This document shows, piece by piece, positions 32,350 to 64,000 of a stretch of DNA of 64,000 nt. The position numbers were made by a program, and so were the translations under genes. The DNA is taken from contig NZ_LVYD01000058.1 in NCBI RefSeq assembly GCF_002077945.1, positions 248,001 to 312,000 of the forward strand. Reading direction: 5' to 3'. This DNA comes from Niastella vici. GTDB taxonomy: Bacteria > Bacteroidota > Bacteroidia > Chitinophagales > Chitinophagaceae. The first letter of the stretch is position 1, and every line of letters starts with the position of its first letter. The notes beneath the pieces were generated by a model that saw nothing but the letters and a program-made list of their open reading frames with translations, was not told where the DNA came from and searched no databases.

Positions 32350-32359
32350 AAAAGAATTT

Positions 32360-33427: not shown

Positions 33428-33678
33428 GAGAAAAAATCCGACACTTCATAACTGCCAATTTTATTATTTCAAATGAAGAGGCCGATGTGTCATTTGAAGA
33501 CCATGAAAATATTTTTTCGCTCGGTTTTGTAAACTCAATGTTTGCCATGAAGCTGCTGAATTATATCGAGAGCGAGTTTGGGTTCAGGGTTGATAACGAC
33601 GATATTAACATCAACAACTTCAAGAGTGTAGATAATATGGTGTTACTGGTCAATAAAATGAGAGGGGCACTGACATGA
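33418..33678 (+). CDS. Stand-alone acyl carrier protein, FkbJ type
   Basis: An 86-residue carrier protein. The phosphopantetheine attachment Ser is in FSLGFVNSMFAMKLL, where the more usual DS is NS, as in other FkbJ-like carriers. It overlaps both neighbours (10 bp upstream, 4 bp downstream), so the cassette is translationally coupled. It should carry glyceryl, then hydroxymalonyl, units for the PKS acyltransferase. Confidence 0.88.
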   Translation: MEVREKIRHFITANFIISNEEADVSFEDHENIFSLGFVNSMFAMKLLNYIESEFGFRVDNDDININNFKSVDNMVLLVNKMRGALT

Positions 33679-40702: not shown

Positions 40703-43700
40703 ATGAATGTAAAAGAAGTACTGCGGGAGCTGAAGGAGAATAAGATCGACATCGCCCTGCACAATGGTGATATCCGGCTCAGCAGCGATAATCCGGAGAT
40801 TCCTGCAGCGATGATCCGGCAGATCAGGGAGATGAAAAAGGAGGTGATCGATTATCTGAAGCAACATATTAGTGATGATGCGGTCATAGATGCTATTCCT
40901 TTGTTACCGCCTCAGGAGGATTATGTATTGTCATCTTCCCAAATGCGTTTGTGGATGGTGACCCAACTGGCGGAAGGAGGCACTGCCTACAATATGAACG
41001 GGGTGTATATTTTCAAGGGCCAGGTAGATGAACTTGCACTGGAATATGCATTCAATATCCTTATGGCGCGACATGAGAGCCTGCGGACTATATTCCGTAA
41101 TAATACATCCGGGGAAGTACGGCAGGTGATCGTGCCCCTGAATGAGTTGGAATTTTCCCTTGGCCGCATAGACCTTCGGGACCGGGCCGACAGGAAGGAG
41201 CATGTAAGACAACTGCTTGATGCTGCATTCAGAAAACCGTTCGATCTTTTAAAAGGGCCGCTCATCAGGGCCTGTATTTACCGGTTGGAGGATGATGAAT
41301 GGGTATTCTCCTATACCATGGATCACATCATCACAGACGGCTGGTCAATGGATATTTTGTTCGGGGAATTACAACTGTTGTACAATGCCCGTATTAGTGG
41401 TAAAGAGAATCCCTTATCCCCTTTGCGGATCCAATACAAGGATTATGCTTCATGGCAGCAGCGGTGGTTCCAGAAGCCTTCGCTGAAAAGACAACGGGAA
41501 TACTGGATGCAGCAGTTTGCCGACAATGTGCCGGTACTGGAGATGCCTGTTGACAAGCCGCGCCCCATGGTGAAAAGTTTCAGGGGGGGAGAGATGCGCA
41601 GATACATCAGTGCGGAGAAAACAAGTGCTCTGAGAGATCTGTGCCAGGCAGAAGGAAGTACGCTGTTCATGGGATTGCTGGCTGTTATAAATACCCTGAT
41701 ATACCGTTATTCGGAACAGGAAGATATTGTTATTGGAAGCCCCATTGCAGGAAGGGTTCACCCCGACCTGGAAGATCAGATAGGATTTTATGTAAATACA
41801 CTGGCGTTACGAACACGCATTTCAGGTAAGGATACTTTCCGGCAGCTGTTGACTACCGTTAGAGATATTACGCTCGGGGCCTATCAAAACCAGGAATTCC
41901 CTTTTGATGAGCTGGTAGCCAACCTGCCTATACAAAGGGACATGAGCCGTAACCCTTTATTTGATGTGGTGGTAGCATTGCTCAATCATGAGATCAATGG
42001 AGCCAGGAAAAAGCAAAGACCAGCGAATTTTGAAGCGACCCCCTGGAAGACCAATGAATATAAGATAAGCAAGTTTGACCTGAGCTTTGTGTTTACCGAA
42101 ACGGAGAATGGCCTTACCGCCTATATCGAATATAACACCGACGTTTATCTCGAGGATTCCATTCGCCAAATGTCGGGCTACTTTGAAAATTTACTGGACG
42201 CTATTTTGAGTCAGCCTGACCAGTCCATCGGCCTGTTACCTTTGCTCAATGAGCAGCAGCAAAAAGAATTGCTGATATCACTCCAGGCTCCCATGGTGGC
42301 TGTTCAGGAAGAGGGGACGCGGCCAGGCGAAGAGGCGGCGACGGAAAAGACCGTCGTGAGGTTGTTTGAGGAGCAGGTGAATAAAACGCCTGATGCCATT
42401 GCATTGATCTTTGAAGAGAACAGCTTAACCTATAAGGAATTGAATGAGCAGGCCAACCGGGTAGCACATTACCTAAGAGAGTCGTGTGCTATTGTTCCGG
42501 ATGACCTGGTAGGGGTGCGACTGCAACGTAGTCATCGGATGATCGTCGCGCTGTTGGGTATTCTGAAAGCAGGGGGCGCCTATGTGCCCATCGACCCGGA
42601 ATATCCTGATGAAAGGGTACAGTATATCCTTTCAGACAGCAGGTGTACACTGCTGCTGGAAGAAGCAGAACTTAAAAAAGCTTTAACAGGGGAATATAGC
42701 GGGGAGAACCCAACGGCTGTTAATATTCCTTCCCACCTGGCTTATGTAATATATACTTCGGGATCAACGGGATTGCCGAAAGGTGTCATGGTAGAGCACA
42801 AGAGCATTGTGCGGTTGGTGAAGCCCGGTGATTTTGTTCCGCTGACCGGGCGGGAGACGTTGTTGTCAACCGGCTCCCTTTCTTTTGATGCAACCATTTT
42901 TGAATTCTGGGGCATGCTGCTCAACGGTGGGCGGTTGATATTATGCACGGCCCAAACACTGTTGAATGGCACTGTGCTGGAGCAGCTGATCAGGCGTTGG
43001 GGTGTAGATACGATGTGGTTTACAGTGAGCTTTTTCAATCAGCTGGTGAGCAGGAACATTAGTGTATTCTCCGGCCTGAAGACTATTCTTATAGGTGGTG
43101 AAAAGCTATCGGCTGAATATATCCGCATTTTAAAGGATCGGTACCCGCACGTGAAGATCATCAATGGGTATGGCCCAACGGAGAACACCGTTTTTACCCT
43201 GACCTGTGAAATACATTCGGCCGGCTATATTCCCATAGGAAAACCAATGCGGAATACATATGCCTATGTCCTGAACAGGAAGGGACAGTTGCAACCTCCG
43301 GGCATGATGGGTGAAATTTGCGCGGGCGGTTTGGGGGTTGCCAGGGGCTATTTGTACAGGCCGGAATTGACGGCGGAAAAATTTGTCGATGATCCATACC
43401 TCCCGGGCGCACGGCTTTACCGTACCGGAGATCTGGGAAGGCTGCTGCCAGACGGAAATTTTGAATTTCTGGGGCGCAGGGATGACCAGCTAAAGATCAG
43501 GGGATTCCGTATTGAACCCGGAGAGATCGAAAGTGTGTTGTTGCGGCATAAGGCTGTGAAGGGGGCTGTGGTAGTTGCTGTGCCGAACAGAATGGGAGAA
43601 AAGGAGCTGGCTGCCTATCTCGTTAGTGAGGAAGTGCTCCATGTATCGGAACTGCGATCCTGGCTCTCGGAAGCGTTACCCTCGTACATGCTGCCTGTTC

Positions 43701-46700
43701 ATTATGTTCAGTTATCTGAATTGCCGCTGACGGCTAATGGAAAGGTCGACAAACGGGCCCTGCCTCATCCGGAAGGGATGGAAATGGCAACCGGAAAAAA
43801 ATATGTTGCTCCACGTAATGAAATAGAAACAAAGCTGGTTGCCATCTGGCAGGAAATGCTGAGCAGGGAAAGGATCAGTGTGAATGACGATTTTTTCGAG
43901 CTGGGTGGCCATAGCCTGAAAGTATTCCGGCTGGCCAGTGTACTGGATAAAGAATTTGGCGTTAAGCTAAAGATGCGCGACCTGTTTATGCATGTAGAGC
44001 TTGGCGCGCAGGCAATGTTGATAGAGCGGGCACAAAAGGGGATCGATGCCCCCGGCCAGCAGGTGGAAGGAACAGACGGCATTAAACACGAAACACCGGT
44101 TGTTGTTCCCATTGAGAACATTCCGTTGACACCGGATTATATTTTATCCTCGGGCCAACACCGGCTTTGGGTATTGCAACGGTTTTCAGAAGACAGTGTT
44201 GCATATAATGTACCTTATGCCTACACGCTGCGCGGAAAAATTGAGGAAGACCTGCTTGAGCGGGCGCTTGGAATGATCGTTGAAAGACACGAGATATTAC
44301 GAACAGTTTTCAGGGAAGACGGTTCCGGAGAAGTGCGGCAGTTGGTGCTTCCTGCAAACGCTTCCGGCTTTATAACTGTGCGGGAAGACGTACGTGACAG
44401 AATAGATAAACGGGAATATATAAAGCATAGGGTTGAACGAATGTTCCATGAGGCATTCGATCTGGCAAAAGGACCATTGGTAAGAACAGGTTTGTTCAGA
44501 GTGGAAGACAATGAATGGGTGTTTTGTTATGTGATGCATCATATCATCGTTGATGGGTGGTCAATGGCCGTTCTTATAAGAGAATTCAGTCAGCTGATGA
44601 CTGAGCACAGCGGACAGGTGATGGCAGGGATCAATCCACTGCCACCGCTGCGTATCCAATACAAAGATTATGCACATTGGCAGCAGGAGCAACTTGCCGG
44701 ACAGGTGATGAAAGCGCACCGGGACTACTGGATGCGACAATTCGAAGGAGAGTTGCCTGTACTTGAGCTCACCGGTTCCGGTTTGCGCAGACAGCTGAAA
44801 AGCTACCGGGGCGGTAAAGTACGCCGCGAGTTAGGAACTGCAGAACTGGCTGTATTGAAAAAATTCTGCCGGGAAGAAGGCGGCACTTTGTTTATGGGAC
44901 TATTGTCAGTCCTGAATATGCTGCTTTACAGGTATTCGGGCCAACAAGATATTATAGTCGGCAGCCCAATAGCCGGCAGGGACAATGCTGACCTGGAGGA
45001 TCAGGTCGGGTTCTATGTGAATACGCTGGCGTTGCGCAACAGGTTCGAAGGAACAGATGATTTCAGGCAGCTATTGCAAAAAGTGAAGAAGACCACTCTG
45101 GAAGCTTACGAGCATCATCCTTACCCTTTTGATCAGCTGGTGAATGCGCTTCCCTTGCAAAGGGGTATGGGCAGAAACCCTTTATTCGACGTACTGATCG
45201 ACTTCTCGAACCTGAATGAAACAATACATACACAGATGCAGCAGCGGTGGTTTAAGGATTTCGAATTAGAAAAATTCGGGGCTGTTGCACCGTCGATCAG
45301 TAAGGTGGACCTGACTTTTTTTCTGGAAGAGAATAACGGGGCTTTGTCCCTGTCAATAGAATATGATTCAGATCTGTACAGTAAGGAATGGGTAGAGCGG
45401 ATGTGCGTACATTACCAACAGCTGCTCGAGGCTGTGAGTGCTGATCCCTCAAGGCCCATTGAGCAGATAGATATCCTGGACGACCTGGAAAAACAGATAC
45501 TGAAAGACTTTAACAAACCATCATCAGCGGCGCCAGGGTACACCAACGTTGTGACCTTGTTTAACAGGCAGGCTGCAGCGACGCCAGAGGCCGTGGCCGT
45601 GGAGTTTGGCGAGCACCGGCTAACGTACCGTGAGTTGAATGAAAGGTCAGATGCATTGGCGGCTTATTTTGCCGATGAGTATTCAATACGGCCCGGCGAC
45701 CTTATCGGGATCATGCTGCCCCGTTCGGAAAAACTCATCGTCGCTATACTTGCTACGCTCAAGCTGGGTTGTGCATTCGTGCCGCTGGATCCTGAATATC
45801 CTGCCACGCGGAAAAAGTTTATCATAGAGGACACAGGTGTTAAGCTGATGGTTATACAGGCAGATGAACTCGCAACGCTCGATTATTACGAAGGTCAGGT
45901 CTTCGCCATCGACATTCAGCTCGATGCCATTGTGCCGGCAACACCATTTGCCATGCCACACATTTTGCCCGGCAACACCGCATATCTTATTTATACATCG
46001 GGTTCTACCGGGAAGCCAAAGGGCTGTGAGATCGCACATCAAAGCTTTGCTAATTACATTCAATGGGCCAACCGTTATTATTTCCCCGAAGGGCTGATCC
46101 CGAATTTCAGCTTGTTTACGCCGGTGACCTTCGACCTTACTATTACAAGTATCTTCTGTACGTTGACGAGTGGGGGCACATTGGGCATTTATTCACAACA
46201 TGCCGACATTACGGAGATACTTGCTAACTGTATGTCCGGCAGATTTTCTGCCAATTGCGTTAAGCTAACGCCGTCCCATGTCGACATGCTGAGCCAGCTT
46301 GGCCTTGGCAGTTCACCGGTGGTTTGCGTGATCCTGGGCGGTGAGCCGGTTGACAGGCGGCACGTTCACTTCCTTAAGGAGTTGAACCCCGATATGCGGA
46401 TCTATAACGAATACGGGCCAACGGAGGCAACGGTAGGCTGTACAGTTGCGCTGCTGTCGGCAGATGAGCCGGTACTGATTGGTAAGCCGATTGCCAATAC
46501 ACACATCTATATCACCAATGCCGCAGGCGTTTTGCAACCAGCGGGTATCGAGGGAGAAATATGGATAGGGGGAACAGGAGTTGCCAAAGGTTATTTAAAC
46601 CGTCCTGATCTGACGAATGAAAAATTTGTAATGGATCCTTTTTTTCCCGGCGGCCGAATTTACAAAACGGGCGATCGTGGGCGTTGGTTAAAGAATGGAA

Positions 46701-48679
46701 ACCTGGAATACTTGGGACGAATAGACGAACAGGTAAAAATACGGGGCCACCGGATCGAGCCGGCCGAGATAGAAACTGCCTTACAGCTGCATCCGGATAT
46801 AGATGCTGCGTTAGTGACGGCTACATCCGGCGCTGCCAACGAAAAAGAATTGATAGCTTACCTCGTTACGCAAAAGGAGCCTGCCGTTGCGGACTTACGC
46901 GCGTACCTCAAAGGACTGCTGCCTGCCTATATGCTGCCGCAGCATTATGTATGCCTGGACGCTTTTCCCCTATCGGCCAACGGCAAAGTGGACAGGAAAA
47001 AACTGCCTGACCCGATGGTTAAAGGAGGGCGTAGTGCAGAGCAATATGTGGCTCCTGTCAGTGATACGGAAAAAAGACTGGCTGCAATCTGGCAAAAAGT
47101 GCTGGGGGCCGAACAGGTAGGCCTGAACGATGATTTTTTTGAAATGGGCGGGCATTCTTTTCTTGCCTTGAAGATCGGCATCGAGATCAACAGTGCGTTT
47201 AATACGAACATTGAAGTAAAACATCTGCTGCAGTATACAACCATCCGTACGCTGGCGGAATTTGTAACGGCACTTACTGCCGACGAACCGGGCAATGGCC
47301 ATCCGGGAGCTCCGCATGACGAGGCAGACCTTTCAGGGCCACATTACGAAGTGACAACCACGCAGGTTTATTGGCTGAACGATGAGATCGATAGTGAATA
47401 CAAGTTGACGGATCCCATGCACAGTTCCGGCGTTATGATATATGAGCTGCAGGGAGAATTGGACCTTGACATGCTGAAAAAAGCGCTGTACGACCTTATG
47501 CGCCGTCACGAGAGCCTGAATGCTTCTTTTCACAAAATGAACGGGCGGTTTGTGATGAAGGTGAACGAAGTAGACCCCGCTAAACTGCCTCTTCAGGTTC
47601 TGGAACAAAAGAATGGCGGGGCGGTCAATGCAGCAGACGCCGAAAAATTCCTGGCGTTCAACGACCATATATTGAAAACGACAAGAGCGCCTCTCTTCCT
47701 GATTCGGGTCGTTCGGCACAATGCCGGCTATTTTACTTTTTCATTGAACATCCATCACGTCATTGCCGATGGCTGGGCGCTCGACATCCTGATGAGAGAC
47801 CTGGTTGCTTTATACAATGCGCATAAGACAAACACACCGGTCAATTTGCCGGAATTAAAATATCAGCTAAAAGAACATTTCGGGTTCATTAATAAACATA
47901 AAGCATTGAATTATGATACCCACAAAGCATATTGGCAGGGGCTTTACAATGACCTGCCGGCAAGGCTTACGCTGCCAGGTTGCAATGAAAAACGTACGGC
48001 GCTGAAAGATAAGATATGCAAAGAGGTGACATATTCTTTTACAGACCGGCATGCGGATAACCTGAATGTACTGGTGAGAGAGCATAGGGTTAACCTGTTT
48101 ATTGTTTTACAGGCGACGTTCAAATCTTTTCTTTTCTATACCACAGGCCAAAAGGACCTCCTTATAGGCACCTACGTGTTGGGGCGGGATATCCCCGATT
48201 CGGAGAACCAGATAGGCTGCCTGGCGAATACAAAACTCATTAGAACAATATTGAACGGGAACGATACAGTCAGAGAAGCCATAAGGAAAGTACAGAAGTC
48301 AAATGAGGATATGAACACGTATAATGCCTATACGTTGAACGACCTGTTCTCTGCAATGCTGCCGGCCAATGAATCGCTGACAGACGGGTATTGGAAGATA
48401 AACATGCAGTATGTCACCGTCAAAGAAGAGACCTTAAGTAACAGCTATTCCGGCAGCGGTGATCTCATGGTAAAAAAGAGGCCTGCTGAAACGGATGCCG
48501 TTATTCCCATCGACATGCAGCTTCAATTCCGTGGTTCTTATAAAAATCTGAAAGTGGATGTAACGTATGACAGCAGCCGCTATCAGGAAGATGCCATACA
48601 ACGGCTAATGTCCGGTTATTTCAACTACCTGGAAAAAATGACAGGTTCCGGGAATATTTTAAATCCTGATAAGATATAA
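40703..48679 (+). CDS. Nonribosomal peptide synthetase: TubC-C-A-T-C-A-T-C
   Basis: A 2658-residue NRPS. Residues 1-55 are a TubC-type docking domain. C1 has MDHIITDG (catalytic His208; the preceding His is Asp). A1 core YTSGSTG starts at 684, T1 Ser is 1071 (GGHSL). C2 has MHHIIVDG (His1279-1280). A2 core starts at 1764, T2 Ser is 2152 (GGHSF). A final C domain has IHHVIADG (His2351-2352) and ends the protein. By alignment to GrsA by eye, A1 reads DAFWLGGVFK (close to Val codes) and A2 DLTKIGEVGK (an Asn-type code). No epimerase, methyltransferase or thioesterase domain. It starts 11 bp after the PKS stop and probably accepts its polyketide. Confidence 0.95.
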   Translation: MNVKEVLRELKENKIDIALHNGDIRLSSDNPEIPAAMIRQIREMKKEVIDYLKQHISDDAVIDAIPLLPPQEDYVLSSSQMRLWMVTQLAEGGTAYNMNGVYIFKGQVDELALEYAFNILMARHESLRTIFRNNTSGEVRQVIVPLNELEFSLGRIDLRDRADRKEHVRQLLDAAFRKPFDLLKGPLIRACIYRLEDDEWVFSYTMDHIITDGWSMDILFGELQLLYNARISGKENPLSPLRIQYKDYASWQQRWFQKPSLKRQREYWMQQFADNVPVLEMPVDKPRPMVKSFRGGEMRRYISAEKTSALRDLCQAEGSTLFMGLLAVINTLIYRYSEQEDIVIGSPIAGRVHPDLEDQIGFYVNTLALRTRISGKDTFRQLLTTVRDITLGAYQNQEFPFDELVANLPIQRDMSRNPLFDVVVALLNHEINGARKKQRPANFEATPWKTNEYKISKFDLSFVFTETENGLTAYIEYNTDVYLEDSIRQMSGYFENLLDAILSQPDQSIGLLPLLNEQQQKELLISLQAPMVAVQEEGTRPGEEAATEKTVVRLFEEQVNKTPDAIALIFEENSLTYKELNEQANRVAHYLRESCAIVPDDLVGVRLQRSHRMIVALLGILKAGGAYVPIDPEYPDERVQYILSDSRCTLLLEEAELKKALTGEYSGENPTAVNIPSHLAYVIYTSGSTGLPKGVMVEHKSIVRLVKPGDFVPLTGRETLLSTGSLSFDATIFEFWGMLLNGGRLILCTAQTLLNGTVLEQLIRRWGVDTMWFTVSFFNQLVSRNISVFSGLKTILIGGEKLSAEYIRILKDRYPHVKIINGYGPTENTVFTLTCEIHSAGYIPIGKPMRNTYAYVLNRKGQLQPPGMMGEICAGGLGVARGYLYRPELTAEKFVDDPYLPGARLYRTGDLGRLLPDGNFEFLGRRDDQLKIRGFRIEPGEIESVLLRHKAVKGAVVVAVPNRMGEKELAAYLVSEEVLHVSELRSWLSEALPSYMLPVHYVQLSELPLTANGKVDKRALPHPEGMEMATGKKYVAPRNEIETKLVAIWQEMLSRERISVNDDFFELGGHSLKVFRLASVLDKEFGVKLKMRDLFMHVELGAQAMLIERAQKGIDAPGQQVEGTDGIKHETPVVVPIENIPLTPDYILSSGQHRLWVLQRFSEDSVAYNVPYAYTLRGKIEEDLLERALGMIVERHEILRTVFREDGSGEVRQLVLPANASGFITVREDVRDRIDKREYIKHRVERMFHEAFDLAKGPLVRTGLFRVEDNEWVFCYVMHHIIVDGWSMAVLIREFSQLMTEHSGQVMAGINPLPPLRIQYKDYAHWQQEQLAGQVMKAHRDYWMRQFEGELPVLELTGSGLRRQLKSYRGGKVRRELGTAELAVLKKFCREEGGTLFMGLLSVLNMLLYRYSGQQDIIVGSPIAGRDNADLEDQVGFYVNTLALRNRFEGTDDFRQLLQKVKKTTLEAYEHHPYPFDQLVNALPLQRGMGRNPLFDVLIDFSNLNETIHTQMQQRWFKDFELEKFGAVAPSISKVDLTFFLEENNGALSLSIEYDSDLYSKEWVERMCVHYQQLLEAVSADPSRPIEQIDILDDLEKQILKDFNKPSSAAPGYTNVVTLFNRQAAATPEAVAVEFGEHRLTYRELNERSDALAAYFADEYSIRPGDLIGIMLPRSEKLIVAILATLKLGCAFVPLDPEYPATRKKFIIEDTGVKLMVIQADELATLDYYEGQVFAIDIQLDAIVPATPFAMPHILPGNTAYLIYTSGSTGKPKGCEIAHQSFANYIQWANRYYFPEGLIPNFSLFTPVTFDLTITSIFCTLTSGGTLGIYSQHADITEILANCMSGRFSANCVKLTPSHVDMLSQLGLGSSPVVCVILGGEPVDRRHVHFLKELNPDMRIYNEYGPTEATVGCTVALLSADEPVLIGKPIANTHIYITNAAGVLQPAGIEGEIWIGGTGVAKGYLNRPDLTNEKFVMDPFFPGGRIYKTGDRGRWLKNGNLEYLGRIDEQVKIRGHRIEPAEIETALQLHPDIDAALVTATSGAANEKELIAYLVTQKEPAVADLRAYLKGLLPAYMLPQHYVCLDAFPLSANGKVDRKKLPDPMVKGGRSAEQYVAPVSDTEKRLAAIWQKVLGAEQVGLNDDFFEMGGHSFLALKIGIEINSAFNTNIEVKHLLQYTTIRTLAEFVTALTADEPGNGHPGAPHDEADLSGPHYEVTTTQVYWLNDEIDSEYKLTDPMHSSGVMIYELQGELDLDMLKKALYDLMRRHESLNASFHKMNGRFVMKVNEVDPAKLPLQVLEQKNGGAVNAADAEKFLAFNDHILKTTRAPLFLIRVVRHNAGYFTFSLNIHHVIADGWALDILMRDLVALYNAHKTNTPVNLPELKYQLKEHFGFINKHKALNYDTHKAYWQGLYNDLPARLTLPGCNEKRTALKDKICKEVTYSFTDRHADNLNVLVREHRVNLFIVLQATFKSFLFYTTGQKDLLIGTYVLGRDIPDSENQIGCLANTKLIRTILNGNDTVREAIRKVQKSNEDMNTYNAYTLNDLFSAMLPANESLTDGYWKINMQYVTVKEETLSNSYSGSGDLMVKKRPAETDAVIPIDMQLQFRGSYKNLKVDVTYDSSRYQEDAIQRLMSGYFNYLEKMTGSGNILNPDKI

Positions 48680-48690
48680 ATGGGATAATT

Positions 48691-49830
48691 ATGACTTGTT
48701 CTGATATTGTTCAAGGGACAAAACTCAAGTGGTACAACAACGGGCTTGAAATGAAGAAGGATATATGTTTACTTGTTCCCCAATTCAATGAGGGTGGCAG
48801 AGAGAACTTCCTGGGAAGGCTGGATTATTTCAGGGAACTGGCCAGGGAATTCAAAGACCATCTCGACATTATCCTTATAGACGACGGCTCTACTGATGGC
48901 AGCTTTGCGAAGATAGATGGCTACCTGGGATCTCATCCAGATGCATTTTTCTTTGCTTCCGTGTCCCCGAATGCCAATAAGGTAGGGGCGCTGAGCCAGG
49001 TTGCCTTATCGGTGTCGCATGAATTCATTATTCTTTCTGATTTCGATACCAACCTCGACGGGCTGAAGGACCTCTTGTCAAAGATCGATCTCTGGCGTGC
49101 GAACGATTCTCATATGGGTTATTTTTTCAGGCTGGTGCCATTCGAAGGCTCAGGGAAGATCTTCCAGTACCAGCAGCTGGAATACTGCCTGGCGCGTGTA
49201 AGATATAAATTTCACCAGAGGGTGTACACCGTACCGGTAATGCCCGGAGCAGGTTGTTGCTTCAAGCGGGATATATTGAATACGATCTATTCCCGCCACA
49301 GTGGCCTTAGGAACGGGGAAGACAGGGAGGCTACGATGATCGGCAGGCGGCTGGGTTATTCGGTGTCCTATCTGAAGAATGTACAGGCCCTGACACGCAC
49401 ACCGCTTACAATGAGGGCATTGATAAAACAGCGCGTTCGCTGGAACCTCGGTTACCTGGAGACGGTATATTTCGAACGGCGGCAGTACTGGCGGGAGATT
49501 CAATCGTTCAGCGTGCTGGGTATGCGCACCCTGTTAGATATGTTTTCTGTCTTCTTTATTCTGGCACTGCCCTTTATTCTGTTGATCATCGGCATGAATG
49601 GGCTACTTCACCTGGCGCTCCTTTCCACGCTCTATATCGGATTCGTATCCTGGTGCTACGCGTTGCTGCAGGTAGAACCGGAAGAATGTGCAGAGTTCAG
49701 GCCTAAGCTGATCCCGATGTTGCTGCTCTTTCCTTTGATCAAGCTTTGTATCGACTACACCGCCTGGTTAGGCGCCTTCAGGCAGTTCGCAAAGAACAAA
49801 TATTCCGGATTTGGGAGCAGGTATGTTTAA
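48691..49830 (+). CDS. Processive family 2 glycosyltransferase
   Basis: A 379-residue GT2 with C-terminal membrane segments. Visible are the opening ICLLVPQFNEGG, IDDGSTDGS, the metal site LSDFDTN, and QRVRW (Gln247-Trp251 from this start), the signature of processive synthases such as NodC, hyaluronan and PNAG synthases. Membrane helices follow (about 270-315 and 345-365). The ATG at 48751 (MKKDICLLVPQFN) is an alternative start giving a more typical N-terminus. Within an NRPS operon that also has a NodB-like deacetylase, it may add one or more amino-sugar units to the product; substrate not known. Confidence 0.88.
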   Translation: MTCSDIVQGTKLKWYNNGLEMKKDICLLVPQFNEGGRENFLGRLDYFRELAREFKDHLDIILIDDGSTDGSFAKIDGYLGSHPDAFFFASVSPNANKVGALSQVALSVSHEFIILSDFDTNLDGLKDLLSKIDLWRANDSHMGYFFRLVPFEGSGKIFQYQQLEYCLARVRYKFHQRVYTVPVMPGAGCCFKRDILNTIYSRHSGLRNGEDREATMIGRRLGYSVSYLKNVQALTRTPLTMRALIKQRVRWNLGYLETVYFERRQYWREIQSFSVLGMRTLLDMFSVFFILALPFILLIIGMNGLLHLALLSTLYIGFVSWCYALLQVEPEECAEFRPKLIPMLLLFPLIKLCIDYTAWLGAFRQFAKNKYSGFGSRYV

Positions 49831-49857: not shown

Positions 49858-51495
49858 ATGAACGGAAAAAAAGTTTATTTAAAACCCAACGTGGTATTGG
49901 AGCCATTGGTCATGAACTGGTATGCCTGGCCGCATCTTATTTCGCCGGCCACGCTGGCTATGAATATTGTCGGAAGGCATCTTAAAATAATGAATTCATA
50001 TATACGGTCGCCGGAGATACATCGCAAGGCGACGCTGGATCCCAAAATGAGGGGTGGGCCCTTTATGGATTACAAGGAGTCTCGTCAGCAGGAGATACGG
50101 CAGCTGAAACAGGAGACCATTGTGCAGCAATCCAGGCAGATAGAGCTGGCAGAGGCTATCGTTGAATTGGATGAAATGATCAGGAGGAATGCGAAAGGGG
50201 CTTCGATGGAAAGTCTTTATGAAAAGGTGCCTGATCTGCTGAAAGGATATGTGGAGCTGGTGTATGACCTCAACAACAACGCATCGTTCAGGCTGTTTGA
50301 ATCGCTGTTGTATAACAGTGAATTTTACAACAAGTCTTTCCAAAGCATTGCGCTCTGGACCACCTGCAATGATGAGCGTCCATTTTGTTTAAGTGTGGCG
50401 AGGCTTGAAGAGCCGGGTGTGCTTCAATTGAATATCCCTTTCGAGCATGAAGGGGTAGATGCCTTGAGCCGGATGAAGAAAGAAGCAGCGCCGCTGGAAG
50501 AGATTGCTGCGCTATTGAATGTTCCGGCGGAGAAGAGACCCTTGTTCAACAGTTTATTTACAGAAGAACAACCCCCGGCCTACAACAGGTATTCAGGTGA
50601 TAAGGCCAGGATGCGGTATTTCGGGCATGCCTGCATCCTGATAGAAACCTCCGAGATCAGTATCCTGGTAGACCCGGTGATCAGCTATTATGGATATGAT
50701 TACAGCGTTGACAGGTTCACCGATGCAGACCTGCCTGATCACATCGATTTTGTATTGATCACCCATAATCACCAGGACCATATCCTGTTCGAGACCTTAC
50801 TTCCTTTGCGGCACCGGATCGGAACCATCATTGTGCCGAAGACGACAAGCGGGGCCTTACAGGACCCCGACCTGAAAAAAATGTTCAATGCAATAGGCTT
50901 TAAGAATGTGGTTGAAATTGACGACATGGAGAAGCTTGAATTTGGCGAGGTGGCCGTCAGGGGTATTCCATTTACTGGCGAGCACAGCGATCTGAATATC
51001 CGCACTAAAAGCTGTTATCATGTAGCTGTTGAAAAGTTTACTTTTCTTTTAATGGCCGACTCGCGCATCGTTGAACCGCGTTTGTACGGGCACGTTCATG
51101 ATCTTATTGGCGACGTGGACGTGCTGTTCCTGGGAATGGAATGCGACGGCGCGCCCCTGTCGTGGCTGTACGGACCGCTGCTGACGGAAGAACTGTCACG
51201 TGACAAGGATCAGTCGAGAAGACTGTCAGGGTCGGATTGTAAAAAGGGAATGGCGCTTGTTGATATCTTTCGCCCTGCCGAAGTATATGTATATGCCATG
51301 GGGCAGGAGCCGTGGATAGAATTTATCAGCAGTATAAAGTATACACCTGAATCGAACCCCATTATCCAGTCTGATAAGCTCATAGCAGAGTGTACCGCAC
51401 AAGGCCGTGTTGCCGAAAGGCTGTTCGGCGAGAAAGAATTATTGTATAGTTACCGTAACCGGCAGGTTTCAAAATTACAGCATTATGAAAAGTAG
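49858..51495 (+). CDS. CmlA-like diiron beta-hydroxylase acting on carrier-bound amino acids
   Basis: A 545-residue protein with an N-terminal helical domain and a C-terminal metallo-beta-lactamase-fold oxygenase domain. The metal ligands fit CmlA with a constant offset of two residues as I recall its numbering: His303, His305, Asp307, His308 (HNHQDH), Glu375 (GEHSDL, where hydrolases have His), Asp401 (MADSR) and Glu428 (MECDG). CmlA hydroxylates the beta carbon of an amino acid on its NRPS carrier; FrsH does so on Leu. It lies 27 bp after the GT2 gene in the same run and would act on the Val-like or Asn residue of the upstream NRPS, or on one loaded by the second NRPS. Confidence 0.88.
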   Translation: MNGKKVYLKPNVVLEPLVMNWYAWPHLISPATLAMNIVGRHLKIMNSYIRSPEIHRKATLDPKMRGGPFMDYKESRQQEIRQLKQETIVQQSRQIELAEAIVELDEMIRRNAKGASMESLYEKVPDLLKGYVELVYDLNNNASFRLFESLLYNSEFYNKSFQSIALWTTCNDERPFCLSVARLEEPGVLQLNIPFEHEGVDALSRMKKEAAPLEEIAALLNVPAEKRPLFNSLFTEEQPPAYNRYSGDKARMRYFGHACILIETSEISILVDPVISYYGYDYSVDRFTDADLPDHIDFVLITHNHQDHILFETLLPLRHRIGTIIVPKTTSGALQDPDLKKMFNAIGFKNVVEIDDMEKLEFGEVAVRGIPFTGEHSDLNIRTKSCYHVAVEKFTFLLMADSRIVEPRLYGHVHDLIGDVDVLFLGMECDGAPLSWLYGPLLTEELSRDKDQSRRLSGSDCKKGMALVDIFRPAEVYVYAMGQEPWIEFISSIKYTPESNPIIQSDKLIAECTAQGRVAERLFGEKELLYSYRNRQVSKLQHYEK

Positions 51496-52699
51496 CCGCA
51501 CAAATATATTGATTGGCACATTGGCCGTCATCTCCGTATACATATCCGGAGATGTAAAGGCCCAGCAAAACAATGGCATGCCTGATCGCATGGTCGATGA
51601 ACGCTGGACAAAGCGCGAAGTGATCGGCAAGGCCCGGATGATCAGTGAAAGCATAGAGAATAAGAAGATTTTTGATAGTGTTGAGCGGCGCCTGCTTCGC
51701 CACATGCGTGCACTTCGTATCCCTGGTATGCAGGTGGCTGTGGTAAAAGGTGGAAAGATCATTTGCCTTAAGGCGTTAGGCATTGCCAATGTAGAAGATT
51801 CGATAGCCGTATCTGACCAAACGGTGTTTCCTGTTCATGGTGTTACCCGGGCCATCATAAGCGTATCCATCATGCAACTGGTTGAACAGGGCAGGCTTGA
51901 TATATATGGTCCTATATCAAGGTATCTCGACGATCTTCCGCGCGACTGGCAAAAAGTGACTATCCTTCATTTGCTTACCAACAGCTCCGGATTACCCGAC
52001 TGCTGGGACCCTATCGATCGCGTGCCTGACCATGACGACGATGTTTCCTGGGCAAAAACCCTGGGCACTTCCATATTGTTTGAGCCAGGTGGAAAATTCC
52101 TGCTTTCGCAAACTAATTATGCGTTGTTGGGTAAAATTATTGAAAGGGTCAGCGGAATGCCATTCGCTCAATTCATATCCACGCGTCAATTCAATGTCGC
52201 CGGAATGAAGTGCAGCGGATTTGGAGATGCGCGTGATGTTATACCACATTTATCCAGGGATTATTGCTTTTACCGGGAAATTCACGATCACAGGGAAGAT
52301 ACAAACAGGCTTCAGGTGGCTGCACGTAACTGGCCTGAATTTGTATGGCCGTCCGTGGGTTTAAATACGTCCGCAAAGGACCTGGCGCAATGGACCATTG
52401 CGCTACAGGAAGGCAGGCTTATAGGGAAAAATGCAATGGCGCAAATGTGGAAACCGGTGGTCGGATGGGAGTCATCCATGGAAAAAAATGGTTTAAAAGA
52501 AGGATATAGCTGCGGCTGGGAGGAGACAACCTTTGAGAAACGCAGGGTTCACGCTATCACCGGCGGGGGTAAAGCGGCGATCTATTTCTTTCCGGATGAT
52601 GATCTTACCATTATTGTGTCGGCCAACCTGGGGGTTCATGCTGAGCCAGACAGGATGGCTGAGGCTATAGCGACTATCATAAATAATTATAATCCCTGA
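51485..52699 (+). CDS. Exported beta-lactamase-fold protein with all catalytic motifs altered
   Basis: A 404-residue protein with a signal peptide (MKSSRTNILIGTLAVISVYI) and a class C beta-lactamase/DD-peptidase-like fold (IMQLVEQGRLDIYGPISRYL, NYALLGKIIERVSG, GWEETTFEKRR). The Ser-x-x-Lys site is Gly-Val-Thr-Arg (119-122), the Tyr-x-Asn site is Leu-Ser-Gln (207-209) and the Lys-Thr-Gly site is Ile-Thr-Gly (358-360). It is therefore a probable pseudoenzyme. Start 51485 overlaps the preceding gene by 11 bp; a longer frame from 51407 lacks a signal at its start. The stop overlaps the ABC gene (ATGA). Confidence 0.85.
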   Translation: MKSSRTNILIGTLAVISVYISGDVKAQQNNGMPDRMVDERWTKREVIGKARMISESIENKKIFDSVERRLLRHMRALRIPGMQVAVVKGGKIICLKALGIANVEDSIAVSDQTVFPVHGVTRAIISVSIMQLVEQGRLDIYGPISRYLDDLPRDWQKVTILHLLTNSSGLPDCWDPIDRVPDHDDDVSWAKTLGTSILFEPGGKFLLSQTNYALLGKIIERVSGMPFAQFISTRQFNVAGMKCSGFGDARDVIPHLSRDYCFYREIHDHREDTNRLQVAARNWPEFVWPSVGLNTSAKDLAQWTIALQEGRLIGKNAMAQMWKPVVGWESSMEKNGLKEGYSCGWEETTFEKRRVHAITGGGKAAIYFFPDDDLTIIVSANLGVHAEPDRMAEAIATIINNYNP

Positions 52700-56186: not shown

Positions 56187-56891
56187 ATGGAGAAACAATT
56201 TCGACCCGGAGCCAGCTACGGCAAAGCCGGCTATTTTTTCCTTCCCTTTATCGTTTTGATCATGTTCGGCTTTTATAAGTCGTATATAGGCATATTCCCT
56301 TCTTTTAAAGCTACCGTACATGATCATTTCATGATACATTTTCACGCCGCCCTGTCCATGATATGGGTGATCCTTTTGATCGTGCAGCCTCTTTTGATCC
56401 GATTTAAAAAGGTCAGAATACACCGCTTATTGGGGAAAATGACATATGTTGTTGCGCCGCTGCTTATCTTTTCTTTTATTGGCCTTATTATCTCCTATTG
56501 GAAGCAGGAGAATGTTTCAACCTGGCCCTTTTTTGAGATTGCCCTTCATTACTATTTCCAGGTAATGCACATCATTTTCTTTACAACATTTTATATTCTG
56601 GCGGTCATTAACCGGAAAAAAACGGCGCGGCATGCGGCATTCATGATCGGCACCGGATTGATCTTTATTAACCCCATCGTTCGCCGGGTGTTCAGTAATG
56701 CATTTGGGTATTCCTTTACCGTAGCAGAGACAATAGCGCTGGCTGTTACAGACATAGCTCTTGTAAGCCTGCTCATATATGCGAAGAGACGGAATCTGAA
56801 CCATAAGATTTATTATCTCATTATGGGCATGTTCGTCTTCTACCAGGTACCTATGTTCCTTATCCTGTATTACTTTTTTCCGGGTCAGTAA
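56187..56891 (+). CDS. Small polytopic membrane protein, DUF2306-like, copy 1
   Basis: A 234-residue protein with about seven membrane helices. It has His residues at conserved points: HFHAALSMIWV in helix 2, HRLLGKMTY after helix 2, and HYYFQVMHII in helix 4. The layout resembles DUF2306/cytochrome-b561-like proteins, in which membrane His bind haem, but that is a guess. It is a clear paralogue of the gene at 59625-60296 (both share an HFHA...QPLLI...LHRxLGKxTYV pattern). It is 11 bp before the deacetylase gene. Function unknown. Confidence 0.7.
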   Translation: MEKQFRPGASYGKAGYFFLPFIVLIMFGFYKSYIGIFPSFKATVHDHFMIHFHAALSMIWVILLIVQPLLIRFKKVRIHRLLGKMTYVVAPLLIFSFIGLIISYWKQENVSTWPFFEIALHYYFQVMHIIFFTTFYILAVINRKKTARHAAFMIGTGLIFINPIVRRVFSNAFGYSFTVAETIALAVTDIALVSLLIYAKRRNLNHKIYYLIMGMFVFYQVPMFLILYYFFPGQ

Positions 56892-56902: not shown

Positions 56903-57592
56903 ATGTTCACAGTCGATCAACTTTATGGCGGGCACCTGAGCGCTCATACCTTGTCCCTGACTTTCGACGACGGGCCTGGGCCGAAGACGTACGCGCTTGC
57001 CGAATACCTCAATAAGCAAAATATCCCTGCTACTTTTTTTATGGTGGGGAAGCATTTGGAGGAATACCCGGAAGCGCCTGAGCGGCTACGTGCGCTGGGC
57101 CATCTTGCAGGCAACCATACTTACAACCATTTTGACCTTACGGACAACCGCCTTTCGGGTAACGAGCTGGTTAATGAGGTAGAGCATACCACGACCTTGC
57201 TGCATACCCGGCCCGAGGACAAGACGGTTTTTTTTCGTGCACCCTATGGGTACTGGAACGAACAGGTAGCCACCTGTTTGAACAGTAAACTCGATAAAGT
57301 GCGCCGTTACCGCGGACCTTATTATTGGGATGTTGATGCCCGTGACTATTTATTCTGGCAACATGGCCAACAGTCAGCGGCTTGCGCGAACGCCTATCTA
57401 AACGATATTCAAAAAGTGGGACGGGGTATCGTCCTGATGCACGACAGCTGTGCCGACAATGAGGTTATAAAAAAGAACAACCTGACCTTCGAAGCCATCA
57501 AAATAATGGTGCCGCGATTGAAAGAGCTGGGCTACAGATTCGTCAGGCTTGATACAATTACAAACAATACATATGAGCCAGTCAAAGCATGA
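56903..57592 (+). CDS. Polysaccharide deacetylase, NodB-like
   Basis: A 229-residue carbohydrate esterase 4 protein with the NodB motifs: TFDDGPG (Asp22, Asp23), the metal-binding HTYNH (His72, His76), RAPYGYWN and a late MHDSCADN. It removes N-acetyl groups from amino sugars in the family. No signal peptide, so it probably acts in the cytoplasm on a tethered or freshly made substrate, unlike the secreted peptidoglycan deacetylases. It overlaps the FAAL gene by 20 bp. With the NodC-like GT2 in the same run, it suggests a deacetylated amino sugar on the product. Confidence 0.9.
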   Translation: MFTVDQLYGGHLSAHTLSLTFDDGPGPKTYALAEYLNKQNIPATFFMVGKHLEEYPEAPERLRALGHLAGNHTYNHFDLTDNRLSGNELVNEVEHTTTLLHTRPEDKTVFFRAPYGYWNEQVATCLNSKLDKVRRYRGPYYWDVDARDYLFWQHGQQSAACANAYLNDIQKVGRGIVLMHDSCADNEVIKKNNLTFEAIKIMVPRLKELGYRFVRLDTITNNTYEPVKA

Positions 57593-59612
57593 ATGTTTTT
57601 CGAGCAGATCGACTATTATCGACCGGTTGCAATTACACGCATCCGTGAGTCCCGACAGAAAACTGTTTCGGTTTCTCGACGACCAGGGGATGGGCAGCGA
57701 ATGGGCATTTTCCGATGTATGGCGAAACGTTGCCGCACTTTCGCAGTACCTATCCACCTTACACTTAAAGAGTCAGCGGGCGCTCCTTGTATACCGGGAT
57801 GCGGGACAGTTTATCATTCCTTTTCTGGCTTGCCTCCATGAAGGCATTGTAGCTGTACCTGTGCCTTTTCCCCGGGGCACCAAACAATTATCAAGGATGG
57901 TAGGCATATTCATGGATGCGGAAGCAACAGCGGTCATGTGCTGTTCAGGTGACTTTCATTTGATCGGTGCTATCCTGGCAGATAAGTCGGAAAACAGCCG
58001 GCCGGAGATCATTTTTACCGATGGGGAGCGAGCTACCGGAAATTATGCCGGGCTGGAGCAAAAGGACAATGAGACGGCATTCATACAATACACCTCAGGC
58101 TCCACGGCAGAACCAAAGGGTGTGGTCATCGGCCAGGGACAGATCATGCACAACCAGCAGTTGATCACCCAGGCCTTCGGATGCGACGGAGATTCGGTGA
58201 TCCTGTCCTGGCTCCCTTTTCATCATGATATGGGGCTGATCGGGAACATCCTTCATGCGGTGTATACTGGTTGTTGCTGTGTACTGATGCCTCCGATGAG
58301 CTTTATACAACGGCCTTTATTGTGGTTGGAAAATATTTCCCGGCTGGGCGTAACGCACAGCGGGGGGCCAAATTTCGCCTATGACCTTTGCCTGGAAAAG
58401 ATCAGTGCTGAGGAAAGGGATAAGCTCAATCTTTCACGCTGGCGGGTAGCCTACAATGGATCGGAGCCGGTGAGGGAATCTACCATTCGGCGTTTTACCG
58501 ATTTTTTTGAACCTGCAGGTTTTGAACCGGGTGCATTCTATCCCTGTTACGGCCTTGCTGAAGCCACCCTTATCGTCTCTGGAAGTAAAGAGCATAGGGC
58601 GCCTGGTTTTCTTACCATCGGGCAGGGCCGGGAGAAAGAAAAGATAGCCTTTGCAGATAAGCCCGCACCGCTGACCAGAACAGTCGTCAGTGCAGGAAAG
58701 ATATTGGATGGAATGGAGGTAAAGCTGCTGTCGGACGGTGGTGGAACGGTTTCCAGCGATCTGGAGGAGGGAGAGATCTGTATCTCGGGAAACAGTGTTT
58801 CCCCGGGGTATTGGAATAAAGACAACCAGTCCTGCTATTATTTTGAAGGGCATCGCCGTTTTTTCAGAACAGGTGATCAGGGATTCATCTATAATAATGA
58901 ATTGTTTATCACCGGTAGAATAAAGGAAATGTTGATCATCCGGGGTAAAAACTTTTTCCCTTATGATATAGAATATGCGATAGCCTGTTGTGATCCGCGC
59001 ATCGAGGGTAATGGAGTAGCCGTATTTAGCATCGAGACTGATCAGTTGCCGGTAGCTGTAGTCGAAGTAAAGCGTACTTCGGTAGCAGGCCTGGATGCTG
59101 CACAATTGGTTGGTGTAATAAACGATGAGATCGTAGCCGTTTTTGGTTTCTCACCTTATGATATAGTGCTGGTGCCTCCCCGCGAATTACCCAGAACTAC
59201 CAGCGGCAAGATCAGGAGAACGCTGTGCAGGGAACTTTATGAAGAAAAAAGCTTCATGCAACTGGGGTCCTGGCAACAGTTGATGAATAGTCGTGAAGAA
59301 GATAACAGGCATTTGCTGAATATGGTTATGACCAGGAGGGATGAAGAATCTGTTAGAAATTATTTGCTTGATCTTATAGGTCGAAAGACAGAGGTCAGCA
59401 AAGACGCATTTGATGGTGAAACGGAACTGGCGGCCCTTGGTATAGACTCCATAGGCACCATCGAGCTGGTAAACAGGATCAATACACAGCTGCATATCAA
59501 CCTGGATGTAGCAGACCTGTTCAGGGCTAGAACGCTGAATGGGATGGTGAACCTCATAGAAAAGGTGCTTTGGTTGAAGTCTGCCGGCCAGGGTAATGAA
59601 ATAACAATTTAA
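57573..59612 (+). CDS. Fatty acyl-AMP ligase fused to an acyl carrier protein
   Basis: A 679-residue FAAL-ACP. The adenylation domain (about 1-575) has QYTSGSTAEPKGVV, the FAAL motif WLPFHHDMGLIGNI, and CYGLAEATLIVSG. The C-terminal subdomain contains TGRIKEMLIIRGKNFFPYDIE. The ACP (about 590-670) has ALGIDSIGTIEL. It forms an acyl-AMP from a free fatty acid and transfers it to its own ACP to prime an NRPS. The frame is open from TTG 57549, but ATG 57573 (MSQSKHECFSS) is preferred. The TubC-C NRPS 700 bp downstream is the natural acceptor. Confidence 0.93.
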   Translation: MSQSKHECFSSRSTIIDRLQLHASVSPDRKLFRFLDDQGMGSEWAFSDVWRNVAALSQYLSTLHLKSQRALLVYRDAGQFIIPFLACLHEGIVAVPVPFPRGTKQLSRMVGIFMDAEATAVMCCSGDFHLIGAILADKSENSRPEIIFTDGERATGNYAGLEQKDNETAFIQYTSGSTAEPKGVVIGQGQIMHNQQLITQAFGCDGDSVILSWLPFHHDMGLIGNILHAVYTGCCCVLMPPMSFIQRPLLWLENISRLGVTHSGGPNFAYDLCLEKISAEERDKLNLSRWRVAYNGSEPVRESTIRRFTDFFEPAGFEPGAFYPCYGLAEATLIVSGSKEHRAPGFLTIGQGREKEKIAFADKPAPLTRTVVSAGKILDGMEVKLLSDGGGTVSSDLEEGEICISGNSVSPGYWNKDNQSCYYFEGHRRFFRTGDQGFIYNNELFITGRIKEMLIIRGKNFFPYDIEYAIACCDPRIEGNGVAVFSIETDQLPVAVVEVKRTSVAGLDAAQLVGVINDEIVAVFGFSPYDIVLVPPRELPRTTSGKIRRTLCRELYEEKSFMQLGSWQQLMNSREEDNRHLLNMVMTRRDEESVRNYLLDLIGRKTEVSKDAFDGETELAALGIDSIGTIELVNRINTQLHINLDVADLFRARTLNGMVNLIEKVLWLKSAGQGNEITI

Positions 59613-59624: not shown

Positions 59625-60296
59625 ATGATCAAAATGTATAAAAATATCGGGTTTGTTTTTCTAATCCTTCTTGCTTTTGTGATGGCGGGATTTTTCAAAA
59701 CATACTGGGTCTTTCTTCCTCACCTGAATTTTCCTGCGACGGCCACTGCCGTCACTCACTTTCATGCCATGGTCATGAGCCTGTGGGTGTTGTTACTGAT
59801 TGGCCAGCCGTTGCTCATCAAATACAAAAAAACACAGCTTCATCGTATACTCGGCAAAGTGACATATGTTCTTGCCCCTCTTGTAGTGGCCTCTGTCATT
59901 GGATTGCTGATAAGGAATTATCATAGGGATAATATGCGCATCTGGCCTTTCTGGGATCAGATGCAGGGTGTTTATTTCGGCGCAATACATTCGCTGCAAT
60001 TCATCGTGTTCTATATACTGGCCCTCATTTACAGGCGGAATACAGCACTTCACGGAGGGTTCATGATAGCTACCGGGGTCGTATTGATCAATCCCGCCGT
60101 GGTACGGATCTGGCTGCATTTGTTCCACCTGCCATTCTCTATTGCGCAAACGATCACCTGCTCTACAACTTTTACGGCTATGTTGTTATTAGTGCTGGCG
60201 GCCCGTCGCAGACAAATGGATTACCGGTTTTTGCTGGTGATCTGGTCTACCTTCCTGTTGTATGACATACCGATGCTTTACCTTATTTGGGCATAG
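59625..60296 (+). CDS. Small polytopic membrane protein, DUF2306-like, copy 2
   Basis: A 223-residue paralogue of 56187-56891, with about seven membrane helices and the same His spacing (THFHAMVMSLW, LHRILGKVTY, IHSLQFIVFY). It lies between the FAAL-ACP gene (12-bp gap) and the second NRPS (19-bp gap), so it is a stable part of the biosynthetic run and not a stray gene. Role unknown; a membrane redox, lipid or export-accessory function would suit the setting. Confidence 0.7.
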   Translation: MIKMYKNIGFVFLILLAFVMAGFFKTYWVFLPHLNFPATATAVTHFHAMVMSLWVLLLIGQPLLIKYKKTQLHRILGKVTYVLAPLVVASVIGLLIRNYHRDNMRIWPFWDQMQGVYFGAIHSLQFIVFYILALIYRRNTALHGGFMIATGVVLINPAVVRIWLHLFHLPFSIAQTITCSTTFTAMLLLVLAARRRQMDYRFLLVIWSTFLLYDIPMLYLIWA

Positions 60297-63300: not shown

Positions 63301-64000
63301 CGGCTGCCTTCGCCGGAGCTGTTCTCACAGTCTGACAGCGTTATTGAAAAGCCATCCACACTGCTCGAAGAACGGCTGTTGGATATATGGCGCGAACTGT
63401 TAGATAAAAAAGACATTGGCATCAATCAGTCTTTTTTCGAGGCTGGTGGCAACAGCCTGATGGCGATGCGGCTTAAATTCCTGGTGGAGTCACGTTTGTA
63501 CAAACAATTATCCCTAAGCGAGCTCTTTATTCATTCAACCATCCGGCAACAGGCGCAATTGGTTGAACAACGGCCGCAGATGGTGATGTCAAAAATTGAA
63601 CGGGCGAAGGACGGTCCCTTGTTCCCGGTATCGCACGTACAGGAAAGGCTCTGGGTACTCACCAGGTTTGAAGAAGCATCCGTAGCCTATAATATGCCTG
63701 CTGTCTTCCGCATAAATGGCGTCTTGGATATACCGCTGTTGAAGCAGGCTTTCCGGTTATCTATAGAAAGGCACGAAGCATTAAGAACAATTTTTTTCGA
63801 AGAGGATGGGCGGCAGATGCAAAAGATTCTGACGCCGTCAGCAATGACCTTTTCAGTCTTGGTGGAAGATTATGAAGATGAGGCTGCCTGGATCCAAAAG
63901 CATGTTACGCTGCCTTTCAATGCCCAAACAGGCCCATTGATCAGGTGTGCGGTGCTGCGAAGAAGGTCGGCAGACATCCTGTTGTTTAATGTGCACCATC
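60316..64000 (+). CDS. Nonribosomal peptide synthetase, 3' end beyond the window: TubC-C-A-T-C...
   Basis: An open frame from ATG 60316 (preceded by AAAAGGA) runs to the window edge, 1228 codons. Residues 1-55 are a TubC-type docking domain. C1 has IHHIISDG (His193-194). A1 core YTSGSTG starts at 667 and the T Ser is 1047 (GGNSL). A second C domain begins at about residue 1105 and is cut. The A1 specificity residues read DLFNNALTYK by eye alignment to GrsA, which I recall as an Ala-type code with only moderate certainty. C1 follows a FAAL-ACP gene and is a likely starter C domain that acylates the first residue. Confidence 0.93.
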   Translation, partial: MQIAEIIDKLKKYGAVPRLEGDMVKLTGAVENIPSFILDAIRSEKQALIEYLKESHRKMNAVQIPLAAKRTYYPCTAAQRRMWFLCQLDNGSAAYHIVTRLKLGNDIDLALLEEAFRLSVKKHEILRTVFKDIDGAPFLEILDDVPFAINREQPSLDEDLPEPVLFDLDKGPLFHVRLMTPGNKDYEMIFTIHHIISDGWSIQVLMKEVMDNYQRLLRKETQAQEMLKIQYKDYAHWMEQRLAGEWGQRGIGFWQRQFPSAPSVLSLPYDIPRTGTVEFKGATERFSFQRQQYLDMQALCREEKATLFNFLRAVLSILLGRFSQQNEFVIGAPVSGRTHHELADQLGLYVNTLPLAVHIEGNLHFKEFLKEVSASTRDVFEFQDIPLDTIIDKIAVNREVGRHPLFDVIMVFQNPVTTNEPAAWSRLDIHAQGVAKFDLTFNFDYTADGLFYLDIEYATGLFAAYTIKRLFTALQQIIEQVLKTPDIKLNQIDLLTAEKRRELLYERNPLVSDIHTPNILQLLNQAFDQWKNRIAVIFENKKVSYGELNSYSTSLGHRLDIELNGDTELVGLLTARNECTIGIMLGIWRSGRAYVPIDPSYPVQRIRYIIADAGLKVLVIDRQYSALVPDDLKITILFTDELDANTAADNSAVITTDFREKLAYVIYTSGSTGSPKGVGICHRNVIAFLQWAKREFAATPFSILYAATSYCFDLSIFEFFAPLLLGKSIRMLPSALSIPEYAHSEEGLFINTVPSVVHSLQESGMNWDNVTALNIAGEPLSGNMLSGLNIDKIEIRNLYGPTEDTTYSTVYRVTGQLTAAVPIGKPIDDTRLYILDGNHCPVPEGMAGEIYLSGHGVAKGYINQRQLTTERFLNNPFVPGTVMYKTGDIGKWLGDGNVEFIGRADLQVKIRGHRIEPGEIEHTLEQYPLVNRGLVTIFRDGGEFRIAAYYTGLGLIDLVGLQEFCRRQLPSWMIPDCWMQLDAFPLTTNGKIDRSRLPSPELFSQSDSVIEKPSTLLEERLLDIWRELLDKKDIGINQSFFEAGGNSLMAMRLKFLVESRLYKQLSLSELFIHSTIRQQAQLVEQRPQMVMSKIERAKDGPLFPVSHVQERLWVLTRFEEASVAYNMPAVFRINGVLDIPLLKQAFRLSIERHEALRTIFFEEDGRQMQKILTPSAMTFSVLVEDYEDEAAWIQKHVTLPFNAQTGPLIRCAVLRRRSADILLFNVHH

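Follow-up and report, generated by a model that had tools for sequence, protein, structure and literature searches.

The gene at positions 49858-51495 of the window (the whole stretch of 64,000 nucleotides that was analyzed) encodes a member of the CmlA/FrsH family by all of the sequence and fold features that we examined. The protein is very probably a non-heme diiron monooxygenase that adds a β-hydroxyl group to an amino acid bound to an NRPS carrier of its own PKS/NRPS line; in this description the iron, the activation of O2, the β-position and the carrier-bound state of the substrate are what we infer. The predicted enzyme would act in trans on the amino acid thioester at an NRPS carrier domain, with Asn or Val on NRPS1 the residues most likely to receive the hydroxyl group. 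Few enzymes of the CmlA family have been assayed to date, and the main interest of the find lies in the cluster that surrounds the gene.

Sequence and fold of the encoded protein

49858-51495, + strand: candidate CmlA/FrsH-type diiron β-hydroxylase gene; 545 aa, ATG start; H303, H305, D307, H308, E375, D401, E428

Residues 7-237 of the 545-residue protein match the Pfam family CmlA_N (PF18456) with 296.7 bits (E 1.3e-88, cut-off 25), and the C-terminal half has an MBL fold that matches Lactamase_B_2/_3, so the protein has the domain order of the family at close to its typical length of ~530 residues. Among solved structures, phmmer places FrsH (8a90, 1.6e-142) and CmlA (4jo0/5kik, 1.2e-119) first, each near full length; the identities are 41% to 8a90 and 40% to 4jo0, and no other solved protein ranks closer in sequence. 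The same two proteins lead the fold comparison of a predicted structure model that was built from 14 sequences (mean pLDDT 82.4, falling below 50 in the stretch 377-380 that adjoins E375). FrsH scores Z 42.2 over 516 residues and CmlA Z 39.9 over 506 residues, with the next family at Z 21.2. The CmlA-type assignment made in the first-pass annotation is thus borne out by the CmlA_N match and by the rank of FrsH and CmlA in both sequence and fold. That annotation had also expected general annotation to call the protein an MBL-fold hydrolase; no NCBIfam model reaches its cut-off in a search of the protein, in keeping with this expectation, but Pfam explicitly names the CmlA N-terminal domain.

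Metal ligands

All seven register positions of the CmlA family are metal ligands, Asp403 and Glu430 of CmlA among them. In the phmmer alignment, His303, His305, Asp307, His308, Glu375, Asp401 and Glu428 of the window protein pair with 4jo0 chain positions 307, 309, 311, 312, 379, 405 and 432, an offset that is constant at 4 for all seven residues. The Glu at chain position 379 reads Asp in the sequence of 5kil, which is titled 'CmlA beta-hydroxylase E377D mutant', and the offset is therefore 2 in published numbering. The HxHxDH motif and the equivalents of Glu377, Asp403 and Glu430 of CmlA are all in register, and the uniform two-residue offset that had been proposed from the sequence holds in this alignment. 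A CmlA-type gene with its ligand positions in register is far beyond chance, and we regard the observation as confirmed.

The seven residues and His376 are identical in 94/94 distinct sequences, the window's included, which were picked by similarity alone from 108 scanned loci; four of these loci (L005, L017, L019 and L020), which hold weak metallo-lactamase pieces only, yielded no match in the count, and 80 came from a scan baited with THNHQDH or RY[FY]GHAC[IV], a possible source of bias. Loci retrieved with CmlA_N or with the whole protein are free of this motif-bait bias and agree on the ligand residues. One CmlA_N protein (L009) carries THGHHDH in place of THNHQDH and retains all eight compared positions.

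These data bear on whether the protein could instead be an ordinary zinc MBL-fold hydrolase that serves, for instance, in the editing or release of acyl thioesters. Such an enzyme would share the MBL fold and the Lactamase_B_2/_3 matches of the C-terminal half, and hydrolases reach Z ~21 over ~214-250 residues. We consider this reading highly improbable, because the entire N-terminal domain is CmlA_N, FrsH and CmlA score Z ~40 over ~500 residues, the Glu at position 375 is present in all 94 sequences, and a type-II thioesterase is already encoded in the cluster.

The surrounding PKS/NRPS cluster

A and C domains of a PKS/NRPS line surround the CmlA gene, as the claim of an NRPS context had supposed. 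The features of the window are as follows.

31492-34808, + strand: 3HCDH, FkbH-domain protein, ACP (33418-33678) and acyl-CoA dehydrogenase; probable ACP-linked extender unit set
34824-35558: type-II thioesterase
35758-36264: UpxY-family antiterminator immediately 5' of PKS1 (NCBIfam, 130 bits, cut-off 100)
36264-40691, + strand: PKS1, KS-AT-KR-ACP (Pfam)
40703-48679, + strand: NRPS1, C-A(Val-like)-T-C-A(Asn-like)-T-C; nearest upstream NRPS and likely substrate carrier
42356-43762, + strand: NRPS1 A1, code DAFWLGGVF, Val-like
45551-47005, + strand: NRPS1 A2, code DLTKIGEVG
47315-48670, + strand: unpaired, divergent terminal C domain of NRPS1; HHxxxDG intact (HHVIADG)
48691-49830, + strand: GT2 glycosyltransferase with weak PgaC/NodC resemblance (below NCBIfam cut-offs), 27 bp upstream of the CmlA gene
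51485-52699, + strand: PF00144 beta-lactamase/PBP-like protein; its start overlaps the end of the CmlA gene
Between the PF00144 gene (51485) and the NodB-like deacetylase (56903): two ABC transporter genes
56187-56891 and 59625-60296: two small membrane proteins, similar by eye, without Pfam match
56903-57592: NodB-like deacetylase (below NCBIfam cut-offs)
57549-59612, + strand: fatty-acyl-AMP-ligase-like protein with ACP, probable lipid starter (NCBIfam matches below cut-offs)
60316-64000, + strand, running off the window to 66819: NRPS2, C-A-T-C-A-T; codes DLFNNALTY and DVWNVAMVH

Only the GT2 gene separates NRPS1 from the CmlA gene. Codes of the form DAFW/DAIW.GGTF stand at Val modules in both the cryopeptin and the chitinopeptin line, in agreement with the Val-like reading of NRPS1 A1. 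We take DLTKIGEVG to be an Asn code, and DLFNNALTY of NRPS2 A1 presumably specifies Ala. The AT domain of PKS1 has the motif GHSLG, which is described as a CoA-type motif (PMC4207774). Because a NodC/PgaC-like glycosyltransferase and a NodB-like deacetylase share one lipopeptide-type cluster, a deacetylated amino sugar may form part of the product. An Rfam search gave no match above gathering scores, and a promoter and terminator scan near the CmlA gene found no more than in shuffled sequences.

The PF00144 protein is likely a pseudo-enzyme: by eye, its expected SxxK reads GVTR and the canonical Y-x-N is absent at its place. As this immediate neighbor looks catalytically dead, decay in the cluster is possible, and the CmlA-type protein might likewise be a catalytically altered or decayed homolog without a hydroxylase role. 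We assign this very little probability, since the frame is intact, all ligand positions are kept, conservation is strong throughout and the genes are tightly spaced.

Beyond the window, the assembly line continues for ~18 kb and holds a TauD-type oxygenase and four further NRPS modules (one read as Asp, one as Asn and two with the codes DVWNVAMVH and DVWNMAMVF, to which we assign no residue). We located these on same-contig stretches and number them in continued (extended) coordinates.

66822-70208: NRPS3, Asp module, code DLTKLGHIG
70211-71194: TauD-family gene adjoining the Asp module (PF02668, 2e-40)
71204-74611: NRPS4, code DVWNMAMVF
74648-77278: PKS2, KS and carrier
77307-80741: NRPS5, second Asn-type module, code DLTKIGEVG
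Up to 82526: transporter genes (by eye)
87098-92073, - strand: second putative extender set (within L036), ORFs read by eye

The readings of Asp and Val codes were calibrated on product-known modules; the last one or two letters of the A-domain codes vary with alignment mode in the comparison with cryopeptin and chitinopeptin. Pfam finds no acyltransferase in PKS2, where an AT-like remnant is visible by eye. We saw no epimerization domain among the eight C-type domains of the window cluster, and none of the NRPSs in the line was seen to end in a thioesterase domain (partly by eye). The gene at 70211-71194 carries the TauD Pfam domain of Fe/α-ketoglutarate hydroxylases, and its predicted product is a second candidate hydroxylase in the cluster, one that may serve the Asp of the adjoining module.

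Association of the enzyme with NRPS genes

The host genome (10.06 Mb, 134 contigs) contains one CmlA_N only by profile search, and 8/10 of its condensation-domain matches fall in the CmlA cluster. In the genus sample, 7/10 genomes have a full-length CmlA homolog (8 loci, 54-100% identity), not counting an eighth genome that holds only a 62-residue piece. These seven are the genomes with 10-41 condensation matches, against 0, 0 and 1 in the remaining three. More widely, CmlA_N scores above its cut-off in 4/395 genomes of the phylum sample and 9/244 of the family sample, counting the genome of the window.

A scan of named genomes returned at least 463 relatives among 582 candidate stretches, of which we retained the best 80, from Bacteroidota. 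Within the fetched stretches (up to 10 kb on each side), an A or C domain of an NRPS is present for 72 of these best 80, a number that rises to 79 when best hits to PKS, type-II TE or PPTase are counted; the remaining relative (L051) has an ORF whose best hit, at 54%, is NRPS5. Best hits to the window's type-II thioesterase occur at 42 of the same 80 loci and UpxY-like best hits at 8. No orthologous cluster was seen around the best 80 of the at least 463 named loci or around seven genus loci. In the enzyme tree, the window protein falls in a set of 32 rows (SH-aLRT 97) with mixed codes and no resolution inside the set.

In several near relatives, an NRPS with a terminal C-type domain directly precedes the CmlA gene. 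We considered the terminal C domain of NRPS1 as a docking ('interface') domain for the CmlA protein and dropped the idea, as the terminal C domains of the relatives are by eye of different kinds. When it is aligned with the terminal C domains of seven relatives, the NRPS1 domain shares 21% identity with the first row of that alignment, and it reaches at most 30% with any other among the matches listed (70 of 186 BLAST rows).

Comparison with known systems

FrsH of FR900359 biosynthesis and CmlA of chloramphenicol biosynthesis (4jo0/5kik/5kil) resemble the window protein over their full length; FrsH has the same seven residues and also belongs to an NRPS cluster. The differences lie in the substrate. 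FrsH adds its hydroxyl group to carrier-bound Leu, and the formation of side chains from L-Ile and D-Leu is reported as well (PMC7794379), whereas no Leu-type code is read in the extended window cluster. CmlA acts on p-aminophenylalanine (PMC5061366), whereas no aromatic code is read in the window line. The FrsH report names CmlA as the sole family enzyme assayed before it (PMC7794379). Set beside the window by description only, the kasumigamide system also pairs a CmlA-like enzyme, KasD, with a PKS/NRPS line ending in a C domain; it differs in its proposed substrate, Phe (PMC5061366).

Publications on the chitinopeptins (PMC9248904) and the cryopeptins (PMC12181424) already describe members of the family in NRPS clusters of Bacteroidota, and the two clusters serve among Bacteroidota genomes as product-known anchors for the residue choice of the CmlA family. 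The chitinopeptin cluster of Chitinophaga eiseniae DSM 22224 (G404:C24, ~542-603 kb) has 14 A domains in three genes, upstream of which lie genes for UpxY, a thioesterase, CmlA (L128) and an SbnA-like protein (327 bits to SbnA, just under cut-off). The product contains three β-OH Asp residues, a β-OH Phe and a β-OH Ile, for which the authors point to the CmlA-like protein (PMC9248904). The L128 enzyme is 64.9% identical to the window protein, comes from the same phylum and accompanies an NRPS line with Asp modules; unlike the window protein, it belongs to the other large tree set, and no TauD or other second oxygenase appears among the four neighbors scanned by Pfam (SbnA-like, subtilase, universal stress protein and SDR). 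In the third chitinopeptin gene (L133-L136), we read the A-domain order as Leu-Asp-Leu-Asp-Ile, with Leu at positions 10 and 12, unlike the published text, which places L-Leu at position 13 (PMC9248904).

The second anchor, in Pedobacter cryoconitis DSM 14825 (L106), combines CmlA with five modules, two of which have Val codes. By strain, gene order and codes, we matched L106 to CrpA of the cryopeptin cluster. Cryopeptin contains two dehydrovalines, and hydroxylation of Val is proposed as the first step toward them (PMC12181424). CrpA is 63% identical to the window protein, and its line has Val modules of the DAFWxGG type. Judging from these product structures, the CmlA relatives in Bacteroidota would be linked with Asp, Phe, Ile and Val.

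The cryopeptin precedent raises the alternative that the window enzyme is of the same class and that its hydroxyl group is an intermediate on the way to a dehydro-amino acid. The Val-like module of the window line fits this alternative, as does the presence of a CmlA in a cluster whose two Val modules yield dehydrovaline. In contrast, the two C domains that follow the Val modules of the cryopeptin line form their own clade (SH-aLRT 100, HHAMxDG motifs), which none of the eight C domains of the window cluster joins (quick tree, with a long-branch warning). Because this C-domain type is absent among the eight, a retained hydroxyl group is the better guess; dehydration is not predicted, and we judge it unlikely. 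A +16 shift on the product nevertheless need not persist, since the cryopeptin residue linked to the CmlA homolog ends as dehydrovaline (PMC12181424).

Candidate residues

The first-pass annotation had predicted a Val-like, Asn or Ala-like residue, which fits the codes DAFWLGGVF, DLTKIGEVG and DLFNNALTY within the window; the list proves too short for the whole line, which has further modules (Asp and a second Asn) and a TauD beyond the window. Ala is an unlikely substrate.

We compared residue classes between 10 CmlA-plus and 18 CmlA-minus NRPS regions of related genomes, using A domains with a readable carrier (20/84 plus and 21/94 minus domains were dropped for an unread carrier). Each region was cut to 20 kb or less or was joined from several cuts and does not represent a whole cluster; some of the minus contigs are short (12.6 kb for L146, 27 kb for L152). 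Asx modules make up 17/64 domains in the CmlA-plus regions versus 8/73 in the CmlA-minus regions and occur in 9/10 versus 5/18 regions (cluster permutation p 0.015). Ser is also enriched (8/64 versus 2/73, p 0.035), and the aromatic, Val/Ile and Thr classes show no difference. The Asx count was 15/64 versus 8/73 (Fisher 0.043) before the class rule was widened and has a Fisher value of 0.016 after it. Taking one gapped minus code as Asn gives 17 versus 9 (0.028) or 15 versus 9 (0.069), and over all A domains the count is 20/84 versus 11/94 (0.027), with Asx in 10/10 versus 8/18 regions. As five classes were tested and these countings give Fisher p values of 0.016-0.069, the moderate enrichment of Asx in CmlA-plus clusters is suggestive.

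TauD loci among the best 80 of the at least 463 relatives carry Asx codes in 2/2 cases (Fisher p 0.054), and TauD and CmlA occur together in four clusters (the window, G402, G403 and L107), 4/4 with Asx codes; both samples are too few. Because all four clusters hold Asx codes, TauD is itself a candidate for an Asx.

From the position of NRPS1, the Asx enrichment, the co-occurrence of TauD with Asx and the C-domain tree, we rank Asn before Val, each on NRPS1, by proximity, precedents and a weak statistic. The most probable substrate is Asn or Val of NRPS1, or more generally the residue of an Asx module: Asn/Asp is somewhat favored overall, Val is a possible but clearly less probable choice, and any other residue is rather unlikely.

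We also looked for a carrier-domain signature. In the chitinopeptin and cryopeptin lines, three positions set the T domains of seven hydroxylated or dehydrated modules apart from the remaining 11 that could be read (6/7, 6/7 and 7/7 versus 0/11). These positions were chosen after inspection, the T domain of chitinopeptin module 1 was unreadable, and Asp13 was counted among the hydroxylated residues. The rule was noted once 157 T domains of CmlA loci had been surveyed descriptively, and it was then applied unchanged to 64 T domains of the 10 CmlA-plus regions versus 73 of the 18 CmlA-minus regions. The counts of 11/64 versus 8/73, 11/64 versus 7/73 and 10/64 versus 6/73 (p 0.21, 0.14 and 0.14) leave the signature unsupported, and it was not used for the residue choice.

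A more elaborate arrangement, which we put forward as speculative and doubtful, would have two unrelated O2-activating hydroxylases sharing the line, the CmlA type acting on NRPS1, possibly on Val (as a retained tertiary β-hydroxyvaline) as well as Asn, and the TauD type on Asp, beside two apparent ACP-linked extender-unit gene sets. This division of labor is directly testable because the cluster brings together two aliphatic/amide modules and another oxygenase of an unrelated kind.

The putative extender set at 87098-92073 comprises a free-standing A domain that has a Ser-type code, together with acyl-CoA-dehydrogenase-like, ACP-like, 3HCDH-like and PPTase-like ORFs. In gene content, this set and the one at 31492-34808 recall the gene sets for hydroxymalonyl- and aminomalonyl-ACP of zwittermicin A. 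Both ACP-linked units are described as extender units of that compound (PMC4207774).
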